Positions 16,742-57,172 of a stretch of 64,000 bases of DNA are shown in pieces. The position numbers and the translations under genes are program-made. Each line of letters begins with the position of its first letter. The first letter of the stretch is position 1. Source of the DNA: Planctomycetota bacterium (lineage in GTDB: Bacteria > Planctomycetota > Planctomycetia > Gemmatales > Gemmataceae). The DNA lies in assembly GCA_016191165.1 (NCBI GenBank), contig JACPPF010000149.1, forward strand, positions 1 to 64,000, read 5' to 3'. The notes below the pieces were generated by a model. The model searched no databases. It was not told the origin of the DNA and saw only the letters and a list, made by a program, of their open reading frames with translations.

Positions 16742-16803
16742 GTAGGTCAGGCTTTCCAGCCTGACAGGCCAGGCAAAACGTCAGGCTGGAAAGCCTGACC
16801 TAC
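16742..16803. repeat. GTAGGTCAGGCTTTCC palindromic repeat
   Basis: Two arms, 16742-16765 and 16780-16803, form an inverted repeat with the core TCAGGCTGGAAAGCCTGA. Further copies are at 26565-26613 (inside a gene) and 54318-54366. This copy ends 4 bp before the start codon at 16808. Confidence 0.9.
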
Positions 16804-26012: not shown

Positions 26013-28775
26013 ATGCGCCACCTCATCTTCATCGCAATTTGCGCTGCGTGCCTTCCTTCCTTATCGATGGCACAAACGGTTGGCCTGAAAGTGCCGCCCG
26101 GATTCGAGGTCGTCGAATTCGCCAACGAGAAACTCGCCAATGATATCCATTGCATGACCATTGATCCGAAGGGCCGCGTCGTCGTCAGCGGGCGCGGGTA
26201 CCTCCGCATCCTCGTCGATGACAACGGCGACGGCAAGGCCGACCGCGCCATCGCTCTGGGCCATGCGCCCAAAGACGGCGCGATGGGCCTGCTCTGGGAA
26301 GGCGATTCGCTCTTCGTCACCGGCGACGGCGGCCTGCGGCGCTTGACCATCAAGAACGACAAGACCGTCGGCCCCTCCCAATTGATCCGCGCCATGAAGA
26401 CTGGCGGCGAACACACGTCTCATGCGATTCGCCGCGGACCCGACGGCTGGCTGTACGTCCTGGGCGGCAACACCGCCGGCATCGACAAATCCTACGCCGA
26501 CCTGCCCACCTCACCAATCAAGGCCCCCATCGCCGGCTGCGTCCTGCGCTTCTCCCCTCTCCGCGTAGGTCAGGCTTTCCAGCCTGACGGTCAGGCTGGA
26601 AAGCCTGACCTACGAAAAGAGGCGTACGCCTGCGAAATCGTCGCCCACGGCTTTCGCAATCCCTACGGCATGGACTTCAATCTTGAGGGCGACCTCTTCA
26701 CCTACGATTCCGACAACGAGCGCTGTGTCAGTCTGCCGTGGTATGAGCCGACGCGCTTTTATCACGTGATCGAGGGCCGACATTACGGCTGGCTCAACCC
26801 GCAGCGTGCGGCGTTCTGGCGCCGGCCTCCCTACTTCTGCGATGTCGTCGCGCCGATTGCGACGCTGGGCCGCGGGTCGCCGACGGGCGTCGCCTGCTAT
26901 CGGCACAATCAGTTCCCGGCCGAATATCAGGGTGGCTTCTTCCTGTGCGACTGGACCTTCGGCAAGGTTCACTTCGCATCCCTCAAACGCAAAGGCGCCA
27001 GCTATGCGGCGACGACGCGCGTCTTCCTCGAAGCACAAGGCGAAAACGGCTTCGCGCCGACTGCCTGCGCCGTCGATGACAAGACGGGCGACCTGTACGT
27101 CAGCATCGGCGGCCGCGGCACGCGTGGGGCGGTGTATCGCGTACGCCATCCGCAGCGGTTCAAGGAGATGCGGGGGAAGCTGGAGCCGCTGAAGATGGCC
27201 GCACGCTTCCATCGCGTGCCCACCAAGTTCGTCGGCAGCACGGCAGTCACGGTTGAGCACGTCCTGCGCCTTCTAGGCGGCAAGAAAGACCCCGCAGAGC
27301 GCTTGAACAATGTTCGGTATTTGCAGAATGTGCTCGGCGACATTGGATCGCGAAAATCGATTGGCACGATATGGGAAGGATATACGCCGCGCCAGGAGAT
27401 ATCCGCGCGCGATGGGTCAACGAAGCCGTTGACGGCGATTTTTCCGAGCAAAGATGGCAACCTCGACCGTGAACTCGCGCGCACCCTCGCCATGCTCAGC
27501 TACGCCGACGCCGATGTCCGTTCGCGCGTCCTCGCCAAGTGCGACGCCAAATCCAGCCCCGTCGATGACATCCACTACCTCGCTTGCTACGCGCGCCTGG
27601 GCGGAAAGCGCGATGCCACGGAGGCGAAGCTCGTCGCGGCGGCGTTGCTTGATCTCGATGCAAAAATTGCCGCGCGCACGCTCAAACGCGATTCCAACTG
27701 GGCGCTGCGGGTGCGCGAGTTGTACATCGGGCTGGCCGAGAAGGACGCAACGCTTCATCAAGCGATGATTGAACATCCCGCCTTTGGCCGGGCGGATCAT
27801 GCGCTGTTCGCGAATGTTGACGGCTTCCCGAAGGGGAAGGCGGCGCGCATCTTCTTGCAGCGCTGGCAGCGCGATAAGGACTATGCGCTCAACGGCAATA
27901 TCGTCCAGCTTTTCGCGGCGCTGCCGGCTGACGACTTGCTGCCGACGATTCGCCGGCGCTGGGCAGCGACCGGGCAGGAGGCGGCGCTGTTGCCGCTGTT
28001 GGCGAAGAAGCCGATCGCGGCGGATCGCAAGCGCTTTGTTGATGGCCTGAACTCGCCGCAGGCGGGCGTATGGATTGCATGTTTGGATGGACTCGACAGG
28101 CTCAATGCGAAGAGCGATGCCGATGAGACGTTCGCACTGGTTCGAGCGCTCCACCGCTTGCAGAGCGACAAGCGTAAACTCGCCCCTTACGGGGCACGGC
28201 TCGCCGGGCGTCTGGAGAAAAACACGCAGCAAAAATTTGGGACCGACAGCAAGCGCTGGATCGCCTGGCTCGAAAAAACCCACCCCGAATTCGGTAAGCG
28301 GCTCGCCAATCCCGATGGCGTCGATGTGGCCAAGTGGAACGCCCGGCTCGCGAAACTCGACTGGAACGTCGGCGACGCCGAGCGCGGCCGGGCGGTCTAC
28401 GCGAAGGCGGGCTGCGTGCAGTGCCATTCCGGTTCGCAGGCGCTGGGGCCGGACCTGGTCGGCGTGACCAAAAGATTCTCGCGCGCGGATCTCTTCACCG
28501 CGATCTTGCAGCCTTCCAAGGATGTACCGGCGCGTTACCAGACCACCGTGGTGGAGACGAAGGCGGGCAAAACGCATCAAGGCATCGTCATTTACGACGC
28601 GGTCGATAGTTTGATCCTGCAAACCGGCGCCTCGTTGACGGTGCGGCTGGACGGGGCGGACGTGGGCAGCCGGTATCGGTCGAGCCAATCGCTGATGCCG
28701 GCGGGACTACTCGATCCGCTGAACGATCGCGAGATCGTGGATTTGTCCTTCTATTTGCGCAGCCTTGGCGATTAA
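26013..28775 (+). CDS. Secreted membrane-bound dehydrogenase-type propeller with C-terminal cytochrome c
   Basis: A 920-residue exported protein. Signal peptide MRHLIFIAICAACLPSLSMA; a PQQ-dehydrogenase-like beta-propeller of the planctomycete 'membrane-bound dehydrogenase' group (about 25-400, with GFRNPYGMDFN and CDWTFGKVH); a helical middle region without clear identity; and a C-terminal c-type heme domain with CVQCH at 801-805. It probably oxidises a sugar or alcohol and passes electrons to its own heme, but the substrate is unknown. The propeller contains an in-frame 49-bp palindrome (26565-26613) encoding VGQAFQPDGQAGKPDL, likely a surface-loop insertion. Confidence 0.88.
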   Translation: MRHLIFIAICAACLPSLSMAQTVGLKVPPGFEVVEFANEKLANDIHCMTIDPKGRVVVSGRGYLRILVDDNGDGKADRAIALGHAPKDGAMGLLWEGDSLFVTGDGGLRRLTIKNDKTVGPSQLIRAMKTGGEHTSHAIRRGPDGWLYVLGGNTAGIDKSYADLPTSPIKAPIAGCVLRFSPLRVGQAFQPDGQAGKPDLRKEAYACEIVAHGFRNPYGMDFNLEGDLFTYDSDNERCVSLPWYEPTRFYHVIEGRHYGWLNPQRAAFWRRPPYFCDVVAPIATLGRGSPTGVACYRHNQFPAEYQGGFFLCDWTFGKVHFASLKRKGASYAATTRVFLEAQGENGFAPTACAVDDKTGDLYVSIGGRGTRGAVYRVRHPQRFKEMRGKLEPLKMAARFHRVPTKFVGSTAVTVEHVLRLLGGKKDPAERLNNVRYLQNVLGDIGSRKSIGTIWEGYTPRQEISARDGSTKPLTAIFPSKDGNLDRELARTLAMLSYADADVRSRVLAKCDAKSSPVDDIHYLACYARLGGKRDATEAKLVAAALLDLDAKIAARTLKRDSNWALRVRELYIGLAEKDATLHQAMIEHPAFGRADHALFANVDGFPKGKAARIFLQRWQRDKDYALNGNIVQLFAALPADDLLPTIRRRWAATGQEAALLPLLAKKPIAADRKRFVDGLNSPQAGVWIACLDGLDRLNAKSDADETFALVRALHRLQSDKRKLAPYGARLAGRLEKNTQQKFGTDSKRWIAWLEKTHPEFGKRLANPDGVDVAKWNARLAKLDWNVGDAERGRAVYAKAGCVQCHSGSQALGPDLVGVTKRFSRADLFTAILQPSKDVPARYQTTVVETKAGKTHQGIVIYDAVDSLILQTGASLTVRLDGADVGSRYRSSQSLMPAGLLDPLNDREIVDLSFYLRSLGD
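26565..26613. repeat. Palindromic repeat inserted in frame in a propeller gene
   Basis: A near-perfect 49-bp inverted repeat of the same family as 16742-16803 and 54318-54366. Here it is read through as protein between VLRFSPLR and RKEAYACEIV without breaking the frame. Confidence 0.9.
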
Positions 28776-31442: not shown

Positions 31443-32882
31443 ATGAACCACGTTGACACTCCGCAAACTCGCTGTCAAGTCGGCGTCGCGCGCGGCGACA
31501 TCACGCCGCCGGTTGGCATCTACCATCGCATGTGGGGCGCCGCCTCGCACGAGCGCGCCACCGGCGTGCATCGGCCCCTTCTAGCGACCGCCTTCTGGCT
31601 CGAACCGTGGCTGCGCGATCCCGAGCAGGCATGTTTGCTGATCGCGCTCGATCATTGCGTCATCGACAGCGCCGAGATGACACGGTTTCGGCAAGCCGCC
31701 GGCTACGCCGCCTCGATTGCCCCGGATCGGGTTCACATCGCGCTCTCGCATACGCACGGGTCGGGGTGGATGTCGCGCTCGCGGGCCCATTTTCCCGGCG
31801 GCGAGTTGATCGCGCCCTATTTCGGCGACGTCGTCGCCACGCTCGGCCATCTTGCCCAGCAGGCCAAGAAGGCCGCCCAGCCCGCCACCATCGTCTATGG
31901 TCAGGGGCGTTGCAATCTGGCCGGCCACCGCGATTATTTTGATGAAAACAATCGCCAGTTCGTGTGCGGTTTCAATCCCGCGGGCTCGGCGGACGACACG
32001 GTTCTCGTTGGCCGAATCACAAACGATACGGGGGCATGCCTGGGCACGCTCGTCAACTACGCCTGCCATCCGACAACGCTGGCGTGGGACAATACCGCGA
32101 TCAGCCCCGACTATGTCGGCGTCATGCGCGAGGTGATCGAGGAAGCAACCGGAGCGCCGTGTCTGTTTCTGCAAGGCGCCTCCGGCGATCTCGGCCCGCG
32201 CGAAGGCTTCGTCGGCGATCACGCCATCGCCGACCGCAACGGCAGACAGCTCGGCTACGCCGCCCTGAGCGCGCTGACCGCCCTGCCGCCCGCGGGGACG
32301 CGCTTTGTCTACGCGGGGCCGGTCGTCTCCGGGACGACCATCGGAACGTGGAAGCATCAATCGCTCGATTTCGGCACGCTCAAACGTCAGGAAAACTGGG
32401 ACGCCCGCCATCGGCTGGTCGAATTGCCGTATCGACACAATCTGGAGACCCTCGAAGAAACGAAGGCCGCCCACGCTCACTGGCAGAAGGAGGAAGAGAA
32501 AGCCCGCGCCGCCGGGGACGCGCCGAAGGCGCGCGATTGCCGGGCGATGGTCGAGCAGAAAAACCGCCAGATCACGCGCTTAAGCGCCTTGCCGGAGGGC
32601 AAGGTTTTTCCCTATGGCGTCAACGTACTACGCCTGGGCGATGCCCTGTGGGTGCTGGTTCCCGGCGAGCTATACCAGGCGTTCCAGATGACGCTGCGCT
32701 ACCGCTTTCCGATGATGCCGATCATCGTCGCGACTTTGACCGGCGATTGGCAGCCGGGATATCTGCCCGCGGCATGGGCGTATGGATACGGCATCTATCA
32801 AGACACCATCGCCTGCGTCGGCCCCGGAGCGCTGGAAGTGGTGATCGAGGCGGTGGCGCGGGAGATTCAGGGTTTCAGTTAA
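31443..32882 (+). CDS. Neutral/alkaline ceramidase-like protein
   Basis: A 479-residue protein similar to the N-terminal domain of neutral/alkaline non-lysosomal ceramidase. It opens with VGVARGDITPPVG, carries SHTHGSGWM and NYACHPTTL (zinc-binding His candidates) and LFLQGASGDLGPR around the ceramidase nucleophile region. No signal peptide is visible, so it may be cytoplasmic. In planctomycetes such genes are common and substrates unproven. An AGGGA precedes the ATG. Only 47 bp from the MFS gene; possibly co-transcribed. Confidence 0.82.
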   Translation: MNHVDTPQTRCQVGVARGDITPPVGIYHRMWGAASHERATGVHRPLLATAFWLEPWLRDPEQACLLIALDHCVIDSAEMTRFRQAAGYAASIAPDRVHIALSHTHGSGWMSRSRAHFPGGELIAPYFGDVVATLGHLAQQAKKAAQPATIVYGQGRCNLAGHRDYFDENNRQFVCGFNPAGSADDTVLVGRITNDTGACLGTLVNYACHPTTLAWDNTAISPDYVGVMREVIEEATGAPCLFLQGASGDLGPREGFVGDHAIADRNGRQLGYAALSALTALPPAGTRFVYAGPVVSGTTIGTWKHQSLDFGTLKRQENWDARHRLVELPYRHNLETLEETKAAHAHWQKEEEKARAAGDAPKARDCRAMVEQKNRQITRLSALPEGKVFPYGVNVLRLGDALWVLVPGELYQAFQMTLRYRFPMMPIIVATLTGDWQPGYLPAAWAYGYGIYQDTIACVGPGALEVVIEAVAREIQGFS

Positions 32883-32891
32883 GCACTACCG

Positions 32892-32991
32892 AGCGGCGGG
32901 CGTAAGCCCGCCGTGAATTGGCGTTTTTTTTTTAACGTACGCGACGTTCACAACGTACACAACGTTCACGGCGGGCTTACGCCCGCCGCTC
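32892..32991. repeat. REP doublet (REPIN) upstream of the RAYT gene
   Basis: Two 27-bp arms in inverted orientation, 32892-32918 and 32965-32991, each a GAGCGGCGGGCG hairpin ending in GTGAA, separated by 46 bp rich in T and ACGT steps. The same arms flank the other end of the transposase gene. Confidence 0.92.
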
Positions 32992-33010
32992 AGATCAGAA
33001 GGTTTTGATC

Positions 33011-33658
33011 ATGGATACCCTCACCTGGTTGATTACCTCGACGACCTACGGCACGTGGCTGCCAGGGGATGCACGCGGTTTTGTTGGGCGGGTTTGGGAT
33101 GCACGACCGGACGATCCGGCGACGGAATCGCTTCGAGTGAAACATAACGTTATCGATACGCCCTACGACCGCGACATCCCTGGCCTTCACGAAAAATCGC
33201 GCGCACTCATGAAAGGCAATCCCGTTTTCTTGAGCGTCGAGCAAGCCGACGTTGTGTTGACCCAGTTCCAGGAAACGGCCGCTCATCGTGGCTGGAAGCT
33301 TCACGCCGGGTCGGCAATGGCCAACCACTTTCACCTGGTAGTGACGGCGCCAGCGGAGGTCTTGACAGACGAAATACTCCGAGACTTCAAGAGCTATGCG
33401 TCTCGAGCGCTGAACAAGCGCTGCAGCAAGCCCAGCAGTGGAACGTGGTGGACTGCGTCGGGTTCGCGTCGCCGCTTGCCGGATTCGCACGCCGTTGTTG
33501 CCGCGATTCGCTACGTGCTGGAGCAGTATAGGCCACTCGCGCGGTGGCTGAACCCCGAGCATGGCGCCATCGAAGCATTCCTGAGCGGCGGGCGTCAGCC
33601 CGCCGTGAATGATAATGATGATGATGATGACGACGACGCTGACAACACGGCGGGCTAA
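33011..33658 (+). CDS. REP-associated tyrosine transposase (RAYT, Y1_Tnp/IS200-like)
   Basis: A 215-residue HUH-type single-domain transposase. NHFHLVV gives the HUH histidines, and FKSYASRALN holds the candidate catalytic tyrosine; TTYGTWLPGDARGF near the N-terminus is typical for this subgroup. The ATG at 33011 is used. It is bracketed by REP doublets at 32892-32991 and 33583-33670, the classic RAYT/REPIN layout, and probably mobilises or maintains those repeats in trans. The C-terminus (LSGGRQPAVN followed by an Asp run and DNTAG) is encoded by the downstream doublet, including a GAT microsatellite. Confidence 0.9.
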   Translation: MDTLTWLITSTTYGTWLPGDARGFVGRVWDARPDDPATESLRVKHNVIDTPYDRDIPGLHEKSRALMKGNPVFLSVEQADVVLTQFQETAAHRGWKLHAGSAMANHFHLVVTAPAEVLTDEILRDFKSYASRALNKRCSKPSSGTWWTASGSRRRLPDSHAVVAAIRYVLEQYRPLARWLNPEHGAIEAFLSGGRQPAVNDNDDDDDDDADNTAG

Positions 33659-33670
33659 CGCCCGCCGCTC
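33583..33670. repeat. REP doublet overlapping the ends of two convergent genes
   Basis: Arms at 33583-33609 and about 33645-33670, separated by a GAT/GAC microsatellite. It encodes the last 25 residues of the transposase and supplies its TAA stop. On the other strand it supplies the final SGGR and stop of the cytochrome gene. Confidence 0.9.
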
Positions 33671-35682
33671 GGGAGGGTTTGAATGTAGTGCCACAGCGCA
33701 TCGAATTGAAGCCGGGCGTCGCCGCCCAGGACGTCGCGGATTTGCGTGGTTTTGCCGTCGGTGGCGAAGATTGGCATGCGCATGACGACATCGACGCGGT
33801 CGGGGCGCAGCATCCAGCGGCGATAGTATTCGTAGCGCAATCGAATCGCCGCGTCGGTGAGGTTGATGCCGGGCGCCTCGAACGGCTGGATCGCCGGCTG
33901 TTTGCCGATGCCGTGGCAGTTGTTGCAGTTGAACCCGCCTTGCTGGGGAATCAGTTTTTCACCGATGGCGGCAAGCTTGGGATCGGGTTTGGGGCGCTCG
34001 TCCTCGTCGATGGCAAAGCCGTGCTCGTGCGACAAACCGACGGCGAGCAGTTCCGCGCGGACGGGAAACGCGGGCATGCGCGCCTTGATCCACGGGCGGG
34101 CGCGATGGTCTGGAATGCCCGCCAATAACTTCTTCGTCCATGCGGGTTTCAGCTTCTCGCCCGCCCAGGTCAGGCTTGGCAATTTTTCGGGTTCCTTGCC
34201 GTCCTCTTCCAGCACTTGATACCAGCGCGTCGTGCCGCCGTCGCGGCGATGGCACGAGTTGCATTGCAGCGATTTGACCTGGCGGCGCGAGAACTCGGCG
34301 GGCGTTTCACGGGTGAGCGATTTGCCATCCGTTTTGAGAAACGCGGCCAGGCCGGCGCGTTGAGCATCGGTCATCCCGAAGTCCGGCGCGCGGCCGTGGT
34401 CTTTCGCGGCAAGGCAGCCCTGGTCGAGGCGATCATGTCGGCCGAACCTGACGAGGAACTTGGGCGGCGCCCCAACGAGATGGCAATTCTGACAGCCCAT
34501 GCCGCGGAACAGTTTTTCTCCGCGACGCGCGTCCCCTTTTTCGTGGACCGCAACTTTGCCCTTGCTTTCCTTGCGCAGGTAGGCTTCGAGCTGCCCGGCC
34601 TCGGCATCGCTGAGTTTGAAATCGGGCATACGGATCCACGGCCTGTGTTTTTGCGGCTCCTTCAAAAAATGCGCCAGGGCATGGGGCTGATACTTGGCCC
34701 CGACATGGTCGAGCGACAGGCGCCCGAGTTCGTCTTTTTGAGACGGCTCACTGAAGCGATGGCAGCTGTTGCACGCCAGCTTACGAAAGAGCGCCTCGCC
34801 ATCGGACGCCTTGGGCGCGTCGCCCAGGGGCCGCGGCGCCGGCCCGGATTTGACCGAAGCCAGGTAGGCCGCGATGTCGCGCGCATGCCTGGCGGCATCG
34901 GGACCGACCAAGATTCTGGGCATCGTGGCGTCGGGGCGAAGCGAGCGCGGATTCAACATCCAGGCCGCCAGCCAGTCACTCTGAAAACGATGGCCGGCGT
35001 CATCGAGCTGGGCGGCCCGTGCGTGCATCTCCGGCATCTGGCAATCGGGGAGCTTGAGGTTCTCGATCAAGCCGTGGCAGCGCGCGCAGGCGTGCGTGGC
35101 GTAAAGCTCTCGCCCTTCGCGCACCGCCGTTTGCTGGACCAGGTCCGCGTCATCGCCGCGCGAAAAGAGCACCTCCGGGGGCACCGGCTCGAAACCGAAA
35201 CCCTCGCCGGACCAGTAGAGCCGCACGGTTGATTCGCCCTTGGCGGAACTGGCGCAGTCGATTTCAATGCGGTTGTAGTTCTTCGCGAGTTCGATTTCGA
35301 CGCTCTTGTCTTTGTCCCTGGGCAGCGTCAGAACGGTCTTGTCATTGATCCTGAGCGTGGCCACGCCTGAGCCGACCAGGCGGAACGAATACATGCCCTT
35401 GAGGCGATTCTTGAGATAGCCCGAGAGCCTGGCGTGAAACGGTCCCGCGGCGACGAATGGGCTGGGGGGCGTCCCCGCGGGGACGTGCAACGCCGCCAGG
35501 CGCACTTGGCGCGCATCGAGCGACTTCGTGCCCGCCGCCTTGGCAAACAGACGAAGCGTCAAGCCCGGCTTCAATGCCGCCACTTCCGCCGGCGGTAGCT
35601 TGCCGGGCTTGAATGGCTGCGGGGCCGGTGCGAGCGATACCAGAGAAAAGGCGATCGGAACAATGGCACACTTCGGGATCAT
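33655..35682 (-). CDS. Secreted five-heme c-type cytochrome with PA14-like N-terminus
   Basis: A 675-residue exported protein. After a signal peptide (about 1-20) comes a PA14-like beta sandwich (about 35-180; LKNRLKGMYSFRLVGSG and INDKTVLTL). Five CxxCH motifs follow in order: CARCH, CNSCH, CQNCH, CNSCH, CNNCH. It probably carries electrons, and the PA14-like part may bind glycans. Spacing of about 100-130 residues suggests separate cytochrome c folds. Its stop lies in a REP doublet shared with the transposase gene. Confidence 0.85.
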   Translation of the reverse strand: MIPKCAIVPIAFSLVSLAPAPQPFKPGKLPPAEVAALKPGLTLRLFAKAAGTKSLDARQVRLAALHVPAGTPPSPFVAAGPFHARLSGYLKNRLKGMYSFRLVGSGVATLRINDKTVLTLPRDKDKSVEIELAKNYNRIEIDCASSAKGESTVRLYWSGEGFGFEPVPPEVLFSRGDDADLVQQTAVREGRELYATHACARCHGLIENLKLPDCQMPEMHARAAQLDDAGHRFQSDWLAAWMLNPRSLRPDATMPRILVGPDAARHARDIAAYLASVKSGPAPRPLGDAPKASDGEALFRKLACNSCHRFSEPSQKDELGRLSLDHVGAKYQPHALAHFLKEPQKHRPWIRMPDFKLSDAEAGQLEAYLRKESKGKVAVHEKGDARRGEKLFRGMGCQNCHLVGAPPKFLVRFGRHDRLDQGCLAAKDHGRAPDFGMTDAQRAGLAAFLKTDGKSLTRETPAEFSRRQVKSLQCNSCHRRDGGTTRWYQVLEEDGKEPEKLPSLTWAGEKLKPAWTKKLLAGIPDHRARPWIKARMPAFPVRAELLAVGLSHEHGFAIDEDERPKPDPKLAAIGEKLIPQQGGFNCNNCHGIGKQPAIQPFEAPGINLTDAAIRLRYEYYRRWMLRPDRVDVVMRMPIFATDGKTTQIRDVLGGDARLQFDALWHYIQTLPSGGR

Positions 35683-35691
35683 GTTCGTTTC

Positions 35692-36075
35692 CTACGGTCG
35701 CAACTTCAAACATCTGCGGACTTCTTTACGGACGCGCTTGGCCCAACGCAGGGCCGACTTTGCTTGCCGACCGGTCGCATCGTGGCCGGGATAACGAAAA
35801 TCGACAGCGAATTTTGAGAGAAATCCCAGACCGCGACGTAAGCGTTGTAATTCAGGCTCGTGCGGCAACAACAACGGCAGCAGTTCCAAAAGATCATGAG
35901 TACGGCGAAAAGGAATGCTCTTTTCCTGCAACAGTCCTTTCAGGAATTTTTCCGCAGCCTGCTGGCAGTGGAAACAGACGATCTCATGGACGGGCGGTCG
36001 AAGGCGGGCGGCCGCCTCGGCCGCGCGGAGGTCGCTTTGAGCTTTTCTCAGCCATTGGGGCGTCAGTCTTTTCAT
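35692..36075 (-). CDS. HEPN-domain protein
   Basis: A 127-residue HEPN protein. VCFHCQQAAEKFLKG (33-47) and the RRTH (57-60) of FRRTHDLLELL are the conserved features; the Arg/His pair could form an RNase site. The start at 36075 gives MKRLTPQWLRKAQSDL, the usual N-terminus. The start overlaps the end of the MNT gene by 92 bp, so the two are translationally linked. Together they form an MNT/HEPN toxin-antitoxin type module. Confidence 0.87.
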   Translation of the reverse strand: MKRLTPQWLRKAQSDLRAAEAAARLRPPVHEIVCFHCQQAAEKFLKGLLQEKSIPFRRTHDLLELLPLLLPHEPELQRLRRGLGFLSKFAVDFRYPGHDATGRQAKSALRWAKRVRKEVRRCLKLRP

Positions 36076-36424
36076 AAAGCACTTTGCCGTGTTCGACAAT
36101 TTCGCGTAAGAACCAATCTTCGTCTTGAATGCGTTGCTGGAGGTTTTGCGGAGTGCGCACAAGTAGGTCCATGGAAAACGGTGCATCAAGGGCAGTGCGA
36201 ATTCGAATCGCCTGGGTAACCTCATTCGGACACGCCATCACCACCAGCAGATCAACGTCGCTGTCCTCGGTCGGTTCCCCGTACGCGAACGATCCGAACA
36301 GGATGATCTTGTCAGGCTTGAATCGCTCGGCCACCTGGCGCGCATATTTGCGGATGGCCGGCATCGAGATGTCGGGCAATCCAAATCGCTGCAGGGAAAC
36401 ATACGGGGCGGATTTGCGTGCCAT
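35984..36424 (-). CDS. MNT-type nucleotidyltransferase (antitoxin partner of HEPN)
   Basis: A 146-residue minimal nucleotidyltransferase. GSFAYGEPTEDSDVD (44-58) holds the GS motif and the metal-binding Asp56 and Asp58. In characterised pairs such proteins AMPylate or otherwise neutralise the HEPN RNase. The last 30 residues (KRPPRGRGGRPPSTARP) are low complexity and encoded in the 92-bp overlap with the HEPN gene, so they are probably a late extension of the frame. Confidence 0.87.
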   Translation of the reverse strand: MARKSAPYVSLQRFGLPDISMPAIRKYARQVAERFKPDKIILFGSFAYGEPTEDSDVDLLVVMACPNEVTQAIRIRTALDAPFSMDLLVRTPQNLQQRIQDEDWFLREIVEHGKVLYEKTDAPMAEKSSKRPPRGRGGRPPSTARP

Positions 36425-54317: not shown

Positions 54318-54366
54318 GTAGGTCAGGCTGGAAAGCCTGACCGTCAGGCTGGAAAGCCTGACCTAC
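54318..54366. repeat. Copy of the TCAGGCTGGAAAGCCTGA repeat
   Basis: Two palindromic units, 54318-54341 and 54342-54366, same family as 16742-16803 and 26565-26613. It separates the secreted protein gene from the ribbon-helix-helix gene. Confidence 0.9.
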
Positions 54367-57111: not shown

Positions 57112-57172
57112 ACGAGCCGCGACCGTAAGGGAGCGGGAACAAGCCCCACGCTCCCTTGCGGTCGCGGCTCGT
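57112..57172. repeat. Palindrome of the ACGAGCCGCGACCG family
   Basis: Arms 57112-57135 and 57149-57172 are inverted near-copies (ACGAGCCGCGACCGTAAGGG against CCCTTGCGGTCGCGGCTCGT). Related in sequence to 31362-31428. Confidence 0.88.

Follow-up and report, generated by a model that had tools for sequence, protein, structure and literature searches.

The window analysed here is a 64-kb stretch of a planctomycete genome (G000, below the host genome). Four near-identical hairpins (REPs) at positions 32889-33672 form two inverted doublets that enclose the ORF of a transposase (RAYT), and the whole is located between two convergent genes (Table 1). All four hairpins are built alike: C[CT]GA forms the foot, G-CGGCGGGC / GCCCGCCG-T the 9-bp stem and GTNA the loop, and a 3' G follows the closing T. 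The reading of the first-pass annotation, an HUH transposase between inverted REP doublets with common arms, is confirmed to the base; the extent of 32892-33670 given there identifies the right locus, except that the foot of the upstream doublet starts at 32889, just outside it. The further claim that the downstream doublet provides the last 25 residues and the stop of the RAYT, as well as the final SGGR and the stop of the cytochrome gene, is borne out by the coordinates: residues 191-215 of the RAYT are encoded within this doublet, and the loop of REP 4 (GTTAG/CTAAC) carries both the RAYT stop TAA (33656-33658) and, on the minus strand, the cytochrome stop TAG (33655-33657), so that the two stops overlap by two bases.

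Table 1. Genes and REP hairpins at the RAYT locus of the host genome (positions in the 64-kb window)
Feature	Position	Strand	Description
Left neighbour, neutral/alkaline ceramidase-like gene	31443..32882	+	adjacent to the cytochrome gene in G001 and G002
REP 1	32889..32916	+	foot CCGA, stem GCGGCGGGC, loop GTAA, 3' TG; left outer end of the element, located a few bp past the ceramidase-like stop codon
REP 2	32966..32993	-	foot CTGA, loop GTAA; forms the upstream inverted doublet with REP 1, feet outward
tnpA-Y1/RAYT gene	33011..33658	+	215 aa from ATG; HUH motif NHFH (H106, H108), Y168, Q172, W146-W147
REP 3	33581..33608	+	foot CTGA, loop GTCA; encodes LSGGRQPAV of the RAYT tail
Spacer of the downstream doublet	33609..33644	+	GAT/GAC simple repeat; encodes the Asp run in the RAYT tail
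REP 4	33645..33672	-	foot CCGA, loop GTTA; outer right end of the element; contains the RAYT stop and the cytochrome stop, encodes SGGR of the cytochrome gene
Right neighbour, cytochrome c gene	33655..35682	-	several haem motifs; native last codons and stop replaced by REP 4

The REP counts given here rest on pattern searches. The REP core pattern has six matches in the window (four places, two of them read on both strands), compared with 0.08 expected by chance. Folded as single-stranded DNA, each single REP reaches -12.9 kcal/mol (z about -4.5), and the two doublets have z values of -11.3 and -9.2; a search of the window against Rfam gave no match. In all four REPs, CCGA or CTGA is located directly 5' of the stem, which fits the CnGA foot of class 3 RAYT-like systems, whereas the GT[AG]G foot of the classical GTAG RAYT/REP systems is not seen at this locus, where the foot is CYGA.

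The RAYT ORF scores above the Pfam cut-off for Y1_Tnp and, with 40.9 bits, under the cut-off of 80 for NCBIfam REP_Tyr_transpos; a sequence search of the PDB returned weak IS200 matches only. In the AlphaFold model, which was built on a 25-sequence alignment, the core has a pLDDT above 90 and the REP-encoded tail one of about 50, so that the tail is predicted to be disordered. In Foldseek, ISDra2 TnpA and the RAYT-REP complex 4er8 are the best solved matches to this model, and IS608 TnpA is matched as well. Among 25 homologues, H108, Y168, Q172, W146 and W147 are invariant and H106 is conserved in at least 90%. The protein has the motif WWT and the Y-to-Q spacing Y---Q (YVLEQ), and both this spacing and the longer Y----Q occur within the aligned homologue set. 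In the phylogenetic tree, the window RAYT belongs to a well supported clade with the RAYTs of G237, G072, G052 and G252, far from those of the congeners G005 and G002; its closest other relative in its own genome is 38% identical. The GC content of the RAYT core (59.8% versus 61.3% for the window) says little on transfer. The doublet-RAYT-doublet layout recurs in many homologues, with a REP abutting or overlapping the RAYT stop. The identification of the gene as a RAYT flanked by REP doublets is thus backed by its protein family, by the predicted HUH fold, by the layout in homologues, and by the co-occurrence of REP and RAYT in 297 genomes described below.

In two congeners (G001, locus L074, and G002, locus L073), the ceramidase and cytochrome genes also converge; the matches lie 60-67 bp apart, and there is no RAYT. 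The cytochrome sequences of these RAYT-free congeners end, before the stop, in YIQTLPK and YIQTLPANKK rather than in the YIQTLPSGGR of the window; the REP of the element thus replaced the native last codons and stop of the cytochrome gene. The RAYT-free junctions (2925-2992 of L074 and the matching site in L073) hold unrelated palindromes, TTTAGC...GCTAAA, and therefore this junction may attract palindromes. Conceivably, the REPs could serve mainly as bidirectional terminators or stabilisers of mRNA 3' ends between convergent genes, the RAYT being a passenger; the convergent junction, the presence of unrelated palindromes at the same place in the congeners, and the location of the REPs of other systems mostly downstream of genes (PMC3733652) are all in line with such a role. 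This explanation appears quite improbable, however, and accounts neither for the doublet before the RAYT start and the conservation of foot and loop nor for the co-segregation of the foot with the RAYT clade and the in-frame copies in gene interiors. Further along the window (35692-36424, minus strand), HEPN and nucleotidyltransferase genes adjoin each other and resemble an MNT/HEPN toxin-antitoxin pair.

With one mismatch or fewer, the exact REP is present in four copies in the host genome, all of them at the RAYT locus; when three mismatches are allowed, three more sites only are added, with changed but compensated stems. The first-pass annotation implied a dispersed family of the exact doublet and named uniqueness to this locus as evidence against it; the exact REP is indeed private to the locus, and a dispersed host family of exact REPs was rejected. 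Given the absence of the exact stem elsewhere in the genome, no recent burst from the locus is visible. Within the class, 26 of the 297 genomes contain the exact REP within one mismatch, and a relative of the RAYT (E <= 1e-15) is found in 21 of these 26, compared with 59 of the 271 genomes without the REP (Fisher p 3e-9).

An IS200-like insertion sequence, in which the doublets are mere ends and only the entire 0.78-kb element moves, would be compatible with the confinement of all four exact-stem REPs to the locus, with the inverted outer feet, and with the lack of the element in G001 and G002; moreover, class 3 has been described as intermediate between insertion sequences and REPtrons (PMC6006769). 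We nevertheless regard this alternative as unlikely: there is one full-length copy rather than the multiple near-identical whole elements of the IS200/IS605 type, no second one having been found in the host genome, each end has two hairpins, as in REPtrons, and REPs defined by their foot are dispersed in the host. Solo inverted doublets of similar spacing also occur in the relatives G288, G237, G072 and G117.

A REP definition based on foot, loop and pairing (CYGA-GC..C-GTNA-G..GT-G; search pattern CYGAGCSNNNNNCGTNAGNNNNNSGTG) gives 20 matches in the host genome, 16 of them beyond the RAYT locus, compared with none in reversed controls. Each of six congeners that lack a RAYT of the window clade has 1-2 poorly paired matches, with at most 6 of 8 pairs. 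All five genomes of the window RAYT clade contain at least four matches (20, 64, 13, 7 and 4), as do 6 of the 292 others (p 2e-8). The dispersed family implied by the first-pass annotation is therefore not supported for the exact stem and is recovered only for the REP defined by foot, loop and pairing, which is nearly absent from the six congeners without the RAYT clade. The foot is CYGA at the REPs beside the RAYTs of the window clade (the window, G072, G052, G252 and G237), and other class 3-like RAYTs in the class mostly have GCGA feet. Two genomes, G162 and G291, contain 46-47 foot-defined REPs, and no RAYT of the window clade was found in them when relatives were searched at E <= 1e-15. 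In G159 (loci L132-L138), a REP variant with a GCGA foot is present in 161 copies, partly in 33-bp head-to-tail arrays; this genome has five Y1_Tnp matches and yielded no relative of the window RAYT at E <= 1e-15. A relaxed pattern (GAGCS-N5-CGTNAG-N5-SG) retrieved 137 matches in the host versus 7 in the control; this set was rejected as a single REP family, most matches being members of the ACGA and GCGA subfamilies and having imperfect stems, and the REPs were therefore split by foot.

Covariation was analysed in an alignment of 18 host REPs, namely 17 of the CYGA type and one ACGA partner. Standard pairs fill all 162 pair cells, two-sided (compensated) changes are present in 6 of the 9 stem pairs, and neither any of 500 shuffles nor any slid version attained the covariation score of 0.541. 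The invariant positions are the GA of the foot, the two basal pairs, the top C-G pair, the GT-A of the loop and the 3' TG; among these features, foot, loop and TG were set by the search pattern, and the pairing was not.

By codon-usage gene calls, a simple method, 13 of 14 dispersed CYGA REPs examined in the host are located inside genes, in frame, and one overlaps a gene end, the counts being small, compared with 10 of 56 host REPs of the GTAG, CCCC and ACGA types inside genes (p 3e-7); host GCGA REPs are also mostly intragenic (10 of 12). The in-gene REPs of the host are real according to codon-usage scoring and alignments with homologues. In the isoleucyl-tRNA synthetase (L195), a doublet encodes residues 277-310 of the query, where the Thermus enzyme has 7 residues; the valyl-tRNA synthetase (L202), compared with the solved ValRS 1gax, has inserts at 211-240 and 400-425, of which the latter is a doublet; and chorismate synthase (L199, AroC) has an insert of about 10 residues compared with a solved homologue. 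Other REP-bearing host genes encode an S9 peptidase (two doublets), a DUF1501 protein, three PVC-type haem-binding proteins, a DUF6797 protein and a type ISP enzyme. A stretch spanning the REP is 93% identical between loci L197 and L203, which therefore represent one event, not two. In-frame insertion in conserved genes, similar to that of the Rickettsia palindromes, is a feature of the dispersed REPs (IleRS, ValRS, AroC), whereas the RAYT locus taken by itself does not show it. The in-gene palindromes might, in principle, be chance Gly/Pro/Ala-rich coding sequence instead of REPs, considering that the genome is GC-rich and the encoded peptides resemble flexible linkers; the 20 host matches against none in the reversed control, the perfect compensated 9-bp stems, and the coincidence of doublets with insertions relative to the solved IleRS and ValRS make this extremely improbable.

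In other genomes, CYGA REPs are mostly intergenic (15 of 15 in G291 and 12 of 13 in G162), and the coding habit is therefore a trait of the host genome and not of this REP type everywhere. The statement of the first-pass annotation that REPs also form gene ends applies to this locus and again to homologues, but not to dispersed REPs of other genomes, only 1 of 53 of which provides a gene stop; a general role of REPs as gene stops was accordingly rejected. The gene ends that REPs encode beside the RAYT and the REP copies within genes elsewhere look like one phenomenon, the tolerance of REPs as coding DNA.

The host genome contains additional REP types with their own RAYTs. A GTAG-type palindrome, GTCAGGCT-N4-AGCCTGAC, is present in 248 copies, and its RAYT is encoded on contig C14 (locus L009), where, at 913-1179, a Y1 transposase ORF is preceded by seven or more GTAG-type REPs in tandem; this array is open in the frame of the ORF and repeats RQAGKPDLRR. 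Three doublets of this type lie in the window (16746-16799, 26569-26609 and 54322-54362), the one at 26569 within a 935-aa ORF. The CCCCACGC type has about 90 copies, and its RAYT, on contig C104 (locus L010, 1258-1892), is a second class 3-like RAYT of the host, with the Y motif YVVEGQ and flanking hairpins CCCCACGC-GCAA-GCGTGGGG. The window also contains one REP with an ACGA foot (57112-57139, plus strand; GCCGCGACC-GTAA-GGGAGCGG), of a subfamily with many, mostly intergenic, copies in the host.

Another class 3 RAYT, or one since lost, could have spread the dispersed in-frame CYGA REPs, the window RAYT being a separate late arrival that only has the foot in common. The stems of the dispersed REPs differ from those at the RAYT locus, some dispersed doublets combine a CYGA REP with a GCGA- or ACGA-foot partner, and host GCGA REPs behave alike in also being mostly intragenic, so that another class 3 enzyme may have been at work. 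Conversely, well-paired CYGA...TG REPs are absent from congeners without the window RAYT clade, and no other RAYT-like gene directly flanked by CYGA REPs was found in the host. Attribution is the weak point of the interpretation: the window RAYT may have spread the dispersed copies, and we consider the alternative origin a genuine possibility.

The scenario that we consider probable is that of a class 3-type REPtron at a convergent gene junction, that is, a RAYT with a REPIN on each side, which would mobilise doublets that can be tolerated as coding DNA. Under this scenario, the REPtron would have been acquired at the convergent junction in a planctomycete lineage, where the RAYT probably moved, or moved along with, its own flanking doublets into the site. 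By analogy with relatives, we infer that single-stranded REP DNA is bound by the RAYT as a folded hairpin, with recognition of the 5' CYGA foot, the C-GTNA-G loop end and the pairing of the stem rather than the stem sequence, that Y168 cuts and rejoins near the feet, and that doublets are mobilised as miniature elements. Because the REP carries open frames, with stops arising only via the loop base N, its insertion would be tolerable as coding sequence. REP insertion would then have supplied a disordered tail and a stop to the RAYT and the new SGGR end and stop to the cytochrome gene, and host REPs of the same build would be short Gly/Pro/Ala-rich in-frame inserts in housekeeping genes.

The stronger proposal, a class 3 RAYT together with a REP family whose members persist in the host genome chiefly as in-frame coding sequence, is tentative. 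If it is true, the RAYT reads foot, loop and pairing only, leaving the stems to drift freely; insertions survive in essential genes and at gene ends, the REP being open in most frames; and the enzyme that mobilises a coding palindrome system similar to the Rickettsia palindromic elements (RPE) is identified. One genome combines a candidate enzyme that has REPs on both sides with in-frame inserts in aminoacyl-tRNA synthetases, congeners provide a site without the element, and the naturally varied set of hairpins shows which bases matter, namely the foot, the closing pairs and the GTNA loop. What the RAYT reads in the REP, and which enzyme moves coding palindromes, thereby become testable questions.

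As judged from its sequence, the locus is a planctomycete REPtron, and class 3 TnpAY1 (Quentin et al., 2018, PMC6006769) is the published type that it fits best. The inverted REP pairs on both sides of the RAYT are those of a REPtron, and with class 3 as described in PMC6006769 the locus shares a planctomycete host, an HUH protein with W[TA] and a conserved N-terminal extension, and several flanking hairpins with a 5' CnGA foot. The window RAYT agrees in foot, NHFH and WWT, and differs from the Y----Q signature reported there, YV[VI][AENY]EQ, in that its Y-to-Q spacing (YVLEQ) is one residue shorter. The first-pass annotation noted that RAYT/REPIN systems are best known in gammaproteobacteria; the surprise at the phylum level is smaller than this suggests because class 3 RAYT-like proteins with CnGA feet had already been published from Planctomycetes (PMC6006769). 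In-frame palindromes had been published for Rickettsia and for GTAG/CGTC REPs (PMC3733652). Class 3 REPtrons are rare and were said to need experimental analysis (PMC6006769); unlike the accounts given there, the present case comprises a covarying REP set that is independent of stem sequence, REP-encoded gene ends, and in-frame copies in host genes. Among the open papers searched, no report was found of a covariation-defined class 3 REP set with in-frame tRNA synthetase copies beside a candidate transposase. REPs overlapping the 3' ends of RAYTs had been noted before (PMC3733652).

The HUH/Y1 fold, the hairpin ends and the expected single-strand chemistry are shared with IS608 and ISDra2 of the IS200/IS605 family, which differ from the element described here in that the latter has no tnpB, carries two hairpins per end and is present in a single copy. 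With the group 3 (subclass 2.5) REPtrons of Stenotrophomonas (Sm, PMC8266576), the window system shares short perfect palindromes; the Sm system has a GTAG foot, a 3-nt loop, a RAYT of another class and a Y motif ending in NP. For these perfect hairpins, the foot and a loop base are key for cleavage, the stem sequence is largely tolerated and mismatches are harmful (PMC8266576), and the covariation pattern in the host matches this biochemistry. Rickettsia palindromic elements and intragenic GTAG/CGTC REPs are in-frame palindromes in conserved genes, often dimers coding for 20-30 residues (PMC3733652), and in this respect they resemble the REPs of the host, although their feet differ from the CYGA of the window type. 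Coding palindromes such as the CGTC and rickettsial repeats have no known dedicated transposase (PMC3733652), whereas the present host encodes a RAYT that is flanked by REPs of the same type.
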